This document shows, piece after piece, positions 75-1,319 of a stretch of DNA of 64,000 bases. A program made the translations under genes and the position numbers. The notes beneath the pieces were generated by a model that saw only the letters and a list, made by a program, of their open reading frames with translations, did no database searches and was not told where the DNA came from. This DNA comes from Clostridiales bacterium (lineage in GTDB: Bacteria; Bacillota; Clostridia; UBA1381): the NCBI GenBank assembly GCA_029226975.1, contig JAQXZB010000007.1:1-64000 (forward strand), in the 5' to 3' direction. How positions within the stretch are numbered: position 1 is the stretch's first letter; every line of letters begins with the position of its first letter.

Positions 75-113
75 AAGAGCCTGACGATGTCTATGGACTA
101 AGTCAAGCTCTTT
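72..113 (+). repeat. terminator-like hairpin, copy 1 of a repeated module
   Basis: AAGAGC-CTGAC on the left pairs with GTCA-A-GCTCTT on the right, and the left arm begins inside the TAA of the preceding frame. About 30 of 35 bases match a second copy after the stop of the ApbE gene (55440-55474, minus strand). In both copies the element begins at the TAA of the gene it follows. Probably a rho-independent terminator shared by the two sites. Confidence 0.6.
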
Positions 114-991
114 GGACGTGGGTTAGTTGAGCGGATACTTAAGTTGCTGCAATAACTAAATGCCTCATTACCAATATTTGTTACGCTGTTAGGTATGGAA
201 TAACCCGTTGCTACATTTTTAACAGGATATTTAATTAATCTTGATTTGTTTTTATTAAACAAAACGCCAAAATCATCTGACGAATAATAGTTATTATTCA
301 TATCAATATTTATACTTGTTAGATTACTGCAACCAGAAAACACATAATCACCAATGCTTGTTACACTGCCTGGTATATTTATGCTTGTTAGACCTTCGCA
401 ATCAGAAAACGCATGATTACCAATGCTTGTAACGCCATTGAGTATGGTTATGCCTGTTAAACTTCTACAACCTGCAAATGCACCATAACCAATACTTGTA
501 ACACTGCCCGGTATATTTATGCCCGTTAGGCTGCTGCAATATTCAAATGCCCAATCGCCAATGTTTGTTACGCTGCCTGGTATATTTATGCTTGTTAGGT
601 TGAAGCATGACCTAAACGCTAACTTACCAATGCTTATTACGCTGTCTGGTATGTTTATGCTTGTTAGGCTTGTGCAATTTTCAAATGCCTGATTACCAAT
701 GCTTGTTAGGCTTACGCAATCTTTAAATGCCTCATTACAAATGTTTGTGACACCATTATCTATAATTACATTTAAAATACTGCCCCTTGATGAATACCAT
801 GGCGAATTCCAATTATAAATCCAATTCCACATATCTCCCGTACCGCTTATGGTAAGAGTGCCGTTGTCATCAAGCGTCCAGTTCACATTACTCCCGCATT
901 GACTGCTTGTTACCGCGCTTGCGGGGAGGGCGGTTATTATGCCGGATAGCATACACAGTACCACGATTAGGCTTAAAATTTTCTTCTTCAT
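98..991 (-). CDS. BspA-like leucine-rich repeat secreted protein, probably 3'-truncated
   Basis: 297 residues with a signal peptide (KKK, hydrophobic core, cut after ASA near residue 26). A short N-terminal domain of the SSQCGSNVNWTLDDNGTLTI type follows, then about eight LRR_5 repeats of 23 residues (pattern SLTSINIPGSVTSIG). Such proteins are surface adhesins or binders in gut Firmicutes. The last repeat breaks after AFSYCSNL into an unrelated tail (STNPRPKSLT), and the stop lies inside the hairpin module at 72-113, so the gene looks cut off. The family is often longer and carries a further C-terminal region, which is missing. RBS AAAGAGG precedes the ATG. A structured leader and terminator lie upstream, so expression may be attenuated. 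Confidence 0.8.
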   Translation of the reverse strand: MKKKILSLIVVLCMLSGIITALPASAVTSSQCGSNVNWTLDDNGTLTISGTGDMWNWIYNWNSPWYSSRGSILNVIIDNGVTNICNEAFKDCVSLTSIGNQAFENCTSLTSINIPDSVISIGKLAFRSCFNLTSINIPGSVTNIGDWAFEYCSSLTGINIPGSVTSIGYGAFAGCRSLTGITILNGVTSIGNHAFSDCEGLTSINIPGSVTSIGDYVFSGCSNLTSINIDMNNNYYSSDDFGVLFNKNKSRLIKYPVKNVATGYSIPNSVTNIGNEAFSYCSNLSIRSTNPRPKSLT

Positions 992-1017
992 TTCGTATAC
1001 CTCTTTCCCTGTAATTC

Positions 1018-1046
1018 AAAAAATGCGCCGACCGTAGCCGACGCAT
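1018..1046 (-). terminator. intrinsic terminator between leader RNA and LRR gene
   Basis: Read on the minus strand, ATGCGTCGGC, loop TACG and GTCGGCGCAT form a 10-bp stem (two G-U pairs) followed by six T. It sits about 30 nt upstream of the LRR start codon and downstream of the gene's promoter, so it can only act as an attenuator or as the end of a small RNA. An upstream AGCCG could pair with CGGCT in the 5' arm, a possible antiterminator. Confidence 0.65.
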
Positions 1047-1070
1047 GAAAAACGCGGCTCCGATACTGTT

Positions 1071-1162
1071 GCAACGCAGTTCATATCGCTATAGATATAA
1101 CAAACAAAGCCTGCGTTTTTACCAAACGCAAACTATAGCGATACAATATTAAACTACGTTGC
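1071..1162 (-). ncRNA. candidate structured leader RNA (riboswitch-like), family unknown
   Basis: Three stacked helices: P1 pairs 1071-1081 with 1152-1162 (11 bp), P2 pairs 1084-1094 with 1133-1143 (11 bp), P3 pairs 1112-1118 with 1124-1130 (7 bp, 5-nt loop). The one imperfect position in P1 (1077/1156) is G-U in minus-strand RNA but C-A in plus-strand RNA, which points to the minus strand. A 17-nt one-sided internal loop separates P2 and P3. A promoter ends just upstream (1169-1197) and a terminator follows (1018-1046). I do not recognise the family; a small RNA is the alternative. Confidence 0.5.
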
Positions 1163-1168
1163 TACTCT

Positions 1169-1197
1169 ATTTTAACATAAAATTTCCTTTTTGTCCA
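1169..1197 (-). promoter_or_regulatory. promoter of the LRR leader transcript
   Basis: On the minus strand TGGACA (1192-1197) and TAAAAT (1169-1174) are 17 bp apart, each one base from consensus. The expected start point falls near 1162, exactly where the first helix of the leader begins. Confidence 0.6.
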
Positions 1198-1290
1198 TAG
1201 GCTTTTTACGTTTTCTTCCAAAAAATGCGTTTTGCGGCGCTTTTTTGGGCTTGTTCATTTTTTGTTAATTTTTCACTTGAGAAAAAGACC

Positions 1291-1319
1291 TTGATTATTC
1301 ATTGCAAGTATGTTATAAT
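1291..1319 (+). promoter_or_regulatory. promoter of the 1353-5723 gene cluster
   Basis: TTGATT (1291-1296), 17-bp spacer, perfect TATAAT (1314-1319), about 34 bp upstream of the ATG at 1353. The next four genes follow closely on the same strand with no internal terminator visible. Confidence 0.75.

Follow-up and report, generated by a model that had tools for sequence, protein, structure and literature searches.

A predicted structured RNA encoded on the minus strand at positions 1197 to 1018 of a 64,000-nt stretch of a Clostridiales genome (the whole stretch analysed here, referred to below as the window) is a member of a large conserved RNA family that lies outside Rfam. We consider it likely that this family is a widespread cis-regulatory RNA of gut Clostridia that works as a riboswitch-like transcription attenuator, and that the leader probably decides between an early stop and continued transcription through genes that encode secreted and surface proteins.

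The element comprises a promoter, the helices P1 and P2 with an apical hairpin, and an intrinsic terminator, followed by a BspA-type leucine-rich-repeat (LRR) gene (Table 1); promoter and terminator fix its orientation on the minus strand. A sequence-only reading of the window had proposed this arrangement, with transcription from a TGGACA-N17-TAAAAT promoter starting at the first base of the outer helix, and all of these parts were located: P1 (12 bp, one U-G pair more than the 11 bp given earlier), P2 (11 bp), an apical helix of about 7–8 bp, the 10-bp terminator with its T run, and the LRR gene. The 17-nt one-sided loop of that reading is present at 1111-1095. What the reading did not recognise is that, together with the apical 3' strand, this loop supplies one side of a long-range pairing whose other side is 1062-1048. 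The LRR protein matches Pfam LRR_5 with E = 4.4e-58 and has a signal-peptide-like N-terminus.

Table 1. Parts of the element and of the gene that follows it; positions are those of the window.
Feature	Sequence	Position	Strand	Remarks	Basis
Promoter	TGGACA, TAAAAT	1169..1197	-	-35 at 1197-1192; 17-nt spacer with TG; -10 at 1174-1169	sequence
P1 5' strand	GCAACGTAGTTT	1151..1162	-	predicted transcript start ~1162 is its first base	fold
P1 3' strand	GAACTGCGTTGC	1071..1082	-	conserved GCRRCA-type end comes next	
P2 5' strand	TATCGCTATAG	1133..1143	-	inverted repeat I3, 100% complementary	fold
P2 3' strand	CTATAGCGATA	1084..1094	-	inverted repeat I3	fold
L strand of apical hairpin	TTTGCGTTT	1124..1132	-	local partner of pk5	
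pk5	AAAAACGCAGGCTTTG	1105..1120	-	apical 3' strand and part of the one-sided loop; partner pk3	
pk3	CGGAGCCGCGTTTTT	1048..1062	-	switching strand; partner pk5 or terminator 5' arm	
Antiterminator 5' half, inside pk3	AGCCG	1055..1059	-	partner CGGCT 1040-1036, inside terminator	
Intrinsic terminator	stem ATGCGTCGGC/GTCGGCGCAT	1018..1046	-	10-bp stem 1046-1023, loop TACG, T run to 1018	
Shine-Dalgarno-like site of LRR gene	AAGAGG	1000..1005	-		sequence
BspA-type LRR surface protein, putative controlled gene		98..991	-	297 aa, ATG at 991	

Just 5' of the promoter, positions 1218-1248 hold an inverted repeat that is imperfect and carries A/T runs (CCAAAAAATGCGTTTTGCGGCGCTTTTTTGG); it looks like a bidirectional terminator and recalls the GCATTTTTT present in the terminator of the element itself. 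At the edge of the window, frame 1 of positions 1-84 on the plus strand codes for KPDKEQLQKMLPWSETLPEYCRIPKRA and a stop, which resembles the C-terminus of an IS66-type transposase; this 27-aa piece had no match in Pfam. The LRR ORF is shorter than its paralogue on contig C55 of the same genome and stops shortly before the IS66-like piece, and the LRR gene may therefore have been cut short by an insertion.

The whole window was searched against Rfam 15 at gathering scores and gave three matches, none of them over the element; in permissive mode, window positions 900-1300 and 19 homologous loci gave no credible match over it, in agreement with the earlier failure to recognise a known riboswitch. 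A ZMP/ZTP riboswitch in the window (RF01750, 52377-52457, minus strand, 60.8 bits) is a separate and unrelated element.

The window copy folds with z scores of -5.5 (1018-1197) and -5.9 (1018-1165), none of 200 shuffles being as good, and the opposite strand folds worse (-37.8 vs -58.5 kcal/mol). Its apical hairpin, in which L pairs with pk5, is predicted at -8.8 kcal/mol and the pk5:pk3 duplex at -18.5 kcal/mol. The competing AGCCG/CGGCT pairing, which had been suggested as a means of opening the terminator, does exist, as a hairpin of -11.2 kcal/mol compared with -14.3 kcal/mol for the terminator. With the pseudoknot left out, the antiterminator and terminator folds differ by ~0.1 kcal/mol. 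When intermediates ending at nucleotides 162-175 of the 180-nt stretch were tested, the antiterminator came out as the most stable fold in every case.

A BLAST search with the 180-nt element as query identified a second copy in the same genome (on C55), 90% identical and also located before a BspA-type LRR gene, and 39 of the 101 related genomes also gave matches. Scanning named genomes by pattern yielded 68 loci; apart from six, all of these are in Clostridia of the gut or rumen, mostly in MAGs. The six (in Ralstonia, Weissella, Cryobacterium and others) are without a terminator and were discarded as chance matches. R1, a covariance model built on the 3' core of the family, finds six to seven copies in the genome of the window, most of them divergent from one another (the window and C55 copies, at 90% identity, are the exception). 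The model has matches in 77 of the 95 genomes of the order, representing 25 of 27 genera and with as many as 26 copies in a genome, and in 92 of 391 genomes of the class, in 21 families. Over 398 sampled genomes of the phylum it matches only the genome of the window, apart from two partial and weak matches, and by these searches the family appears to be essentially confined to the class within the phylum. Phages, plasmids and a pattern scan of viral contigs gave no match, and carriage by such elements was rejected on these searches.

Copies occur in tandem, as two or more, at about 16 loci (L010, L039, L046, L052, L083, L084, L094, L135, L153, L157, L172, L173, L194, L196, L226 and L227), with two to four within a few hundred bases and often 5' of a single gene. 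Tandem arrangement before one gene is also known for some riboswitches, and it could sharpen the response.

Conservation of pairing was examined in 197 non-redundant copies (206 were collected) with a swap test, in which the pairing of each strand with its own partner is compared with its pairing to the partners from other copies, and which ignores phylogeny. P1 pairs at -19.3 kcal/mol with its own partner and -10.5 kcal/mol with swapped ones (own better in 188/197), and pk3 pairs with upstream sequence at -17.1 vs -13.5 kcal/mol (182/197), its best upstream partner being almost always pk5, the apical 3' strand together with the start of the one-sided loop (1120-1105 in the window). For the 5' half of pk3 (pk3b), the terminator 5' arm of the same copy is the better partner in 170 of the 197 (-9.3 vs -7.3 kcal/mol), which extends the AGCCG/CGGCT pairing to the family, and for L:pk5 the own partner is better in 144 (-8.7 vs -6.0). 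Pairing of pk3 with downstream sequence served as a control and shows no such preference (-10.91 own vs -10.92 swapped; 92/197). Median lengths are 15 bp for both P1 and pk5:pk3, the latter at least 11 bp in all 197 copies and kept, with few exceptions, at another 40 loci that belong to other families within the class. P1 sequences vary freely between copies yet pair, and position tallies show compensatory types of change, such as G-C to A-U or C-G, although the swap test is the fairer measure because the register of the tally was chosen for each sequence.

The terminator stem, in 57 sequences, has 99.3% of cells paired and 5 of its 10 pairs changed on both sides, a result reached by none of 500 shuffles, and the 5' domain by itself has a z score of about -8.5 in 70 copies. 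Unpaired pieces are conserved as well, among them the UUUGRUAAAA apical loop, the AAUA after P1 and GCRRCA at the 3' end of P1. Since the pattern scan chose its loci by the terminator 5' arm and pk3, and the 3' core is what R1 covers, invariance at pk3 and the terminator partly reflects selection. Neither the pattern nor the model includes pk5 or the 5' strand of P1, and the agreement of these two strands is therefore independent of discovery, except that they may have helped to find the minority of copies that were first detected with the 180-nt BLAST query. Covariation among the copies indicates that P1, the terminator and the antiterminator pairing are all kept.

The genes next to the copies have a common theme. 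Among 110 downstream proteins there are 25 with LRR_5 domains, ten with Cu_amine_oxidN1 and six with SLH, and others carry CHAP, NPCBM, dockerin, Big_2 or lectin domains. A simple hydrophobicity rule, applied with no genome baseline, assigns signal- or TM-like N-termini to 71 of the 88 downstream proteins of at least 90 aa, and most of the predicted targets are proteins that are secreted or lie at the surface. A recurrent small protein of about 40-60 aa (M.DYK.LYF.LFN..TDVIEEL...Q...EE.YI) directly follows the RNA in many genomes (L015, L031, L071, L083, L147, L161, L188, L010 and L224), and a recurrent Cys-rich small protein (MIIDGPTGIELIPGN.GKDCPGNGENGNECCCDECNYL...) follows it at L242, L244, L245, L246, L257, L258 and L081. 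The Cys-rich protein has no Pfam family, and the small downstream proteins of the M.DYK type, those of the type MADYKSLYFQLFNKLTDVIEEL... and others have no credible family in Pfam or PHROGs, so they give no clue to the signal.

The two conserved partners of pk3, namely pk5 and the terminator 5' arm, are mutually exclusive, and a strand with two alternative partners is the layout of a transcription attenuator. Transcription would begin at P1, and the 5' domain (P1, P2 and the L:pk5 apical hairpin) would fold first; pk3 would emerge next and could take either partner. If pk3 pairs with pk5, the apical hairpin would be displaced, a pseudoknot would close around P1, and the terminator would form and stop transcription before the gene (OFF). 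If pk5 is kept in the apical hairpin, pk3 would pair with the terminator 5' arm as an antiterminator and polymerase would enter the gene (ON). Expression of the surface protein would then be set by a signal that makes one state of the 5' domain the more stable. We infer both the switching between folds and, because RNAfold cannot score the pseudoknotted state, the assignment of pk5:pk3 to the OFF state.

This layout resembles that of the ZTP (pfl), fluoride and preQ1 riboswitches, in which a pseudoknot has its 3' strand beside an expression platform that leads to a terminator or an alternative pairing. As in those classes, an upstream loop or strand pairs with a 3' strand adjoining the expression platform; unlike them, the switching strands of the present family pair over about 15 bp, and no Rfam model matched. 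Features of an attenuating riboswitch are found in the family: a conserved structured domain before the expression platform (from the z scores of the 5' domain and the covariation of P1 and pk5:pk3), mutually exclusive terminator and antiterminator pairings (conserved in 170/197, with near-equal energies in the window copy and switching predicted), and a 5'-UTR position before a gene led by a Shine-Dalgarno (SD) sequence (91/194 copies vs 5/186 in the control described below). The family appears to work like a pseudoknot-gated riboswitch, and we regard it as a candidate member of that functional kind. Conserved family, covariation, orientation and a leader position with SD and start codon directly past the terminator together strongly support the regulatory RNA leader, of no known class and with an antiterminator alternative, that had been proposed from the window. 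Fluoride and preQ1 pseudoknots are the subject of PMC8752731 and PMC11625349.

The nature of the signal is less clear than the anatomy. That this is a new class of riboswitch in gut Clostridia, sensing a signal molecule and setting the secreted and surface proteome through exchange among pk5, pk3 and the terminator, is a proposal on which we are evenly divided; a small ligand is presumed in it, and a protein or physical signal is possible. It is conceivable, if somewhat doubtful, that an RNA-binding protein or a trans-acting RNA stabilises one fold in place of a small molecule: such an attenuator would have the same anatomy as is seen here, no ligand is obvious, and the regulon is a broad one of surface genes without metabolic genes; the targets do not indicate a metabolite. 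No accompanying regulator gene was identified, however, and the conserved unpaired UUUGRUAAAA loop and AAUA suit ligand and protein equally.

Position relative to genes bears on whether the RNA is instead a free-standing small RNA that acts in trans, with its neighbour incidental. The copies have their own promoters and a strong terminator: a TATAAT-like box (at least 5/6) is present within 25 nt 5' of P1 in 178/196 copies, mostly at 7-11 nt, compared with 98/196 after shuffling. In about half of the copies no start codon was called within 60 nt, and some copies are without a same-strand gene nearby, as a free-standing RNA could be. Yet an SD-led ORF start lies within 60 nt past the terminator in 91 of 194 copies, clustered at 15-35 nt, whereas the mirrored 5' side gives 5/186 and sites at 700 nt give 6/174; the first gene is on the same strand in 159 of 206 copies (by a simple gene caller). 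The antiterminator pairing is conserved, which a plain small RNA does not need, and the adjacent genes share a functional theme. A free-standing RNA, raised as an alternative in the sequence-only reading, is thus improbable as the general rule.

Cyclic di-GMP deserves mention as a possible signal of the attenuator, since c-di-GMP riboswitches often govern adhesion genes, the regulon here consists of adhesins and surface proteins, and GGDEF proteins are present in 62 of the 95 genomes of the order. The c-di-GMP-I riboswitch (RF01051) is likewise a leader before surface and adhesion genes in Clostridia, but the present family has another fold without an Rfam match; RF01051 did not match the element, and the known riboswitch occurs as a separate element in 22/95 genomes, including that of the window (G000:C29:1343-1422). 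Another copy of the family in the same genome (L104, C29:822-908, minus strand) lies ~435 nt from this divergent, plus-strand riboswitch. We consider a c-di-GMP-sensing leader of new fold very unlikely because several near-complete genomes with copies have no detectable GGDEF protein (G004 with eight copies, G039 with six, G033 with three and G027 with two), an absence from HMM searches of incomplete assemblies that counts as evidence and not as proof. A transposable, MITE-like palindrome scattered near genes, which long inverted repeats, many copies per genome and diverse neighbours might suggest, is scarcely credible and was rejected, as near-identical copies at unrelated positions were not seen and the copies are instead divergent and at related leader positions, with P1 sequences that differ freely and still pair, a constant spacing and orientation relative to the gene that follows, and no match in phages, plasmids or viral contigs.

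Literature searches for the motif found no description of it; because supplements and subscription papers were outside their scope, an earlier listing there as an anonymous motif is possible. PMC8040213 describes candidate structured RNAs of gut microbiomes, and PMC8632094 and PMC11109978 are genome-wide surveys of ncRNAs; their RNAs are likewise computationally found and structured, some of them 5' of genes. The main texts of these three papers, as distinct from their supplementary motif lists, contain no LRR-, S-layer- or adhesin-linked motif.

The finding reaches beyond the coordinates of the window to a large riboswitch-like attenuator family that is not in Rfam, with enough members and enough covariation to support structural studies and a direct search for its ligand. 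In many uncultured Clostridia of gut and rumen, a single shared RNA switch appears to govern adhesins, S-layer-type proteins and further secreted proteins, and its signal could be one that these bacteria use in choosing what to display to the host and to their neighbours.
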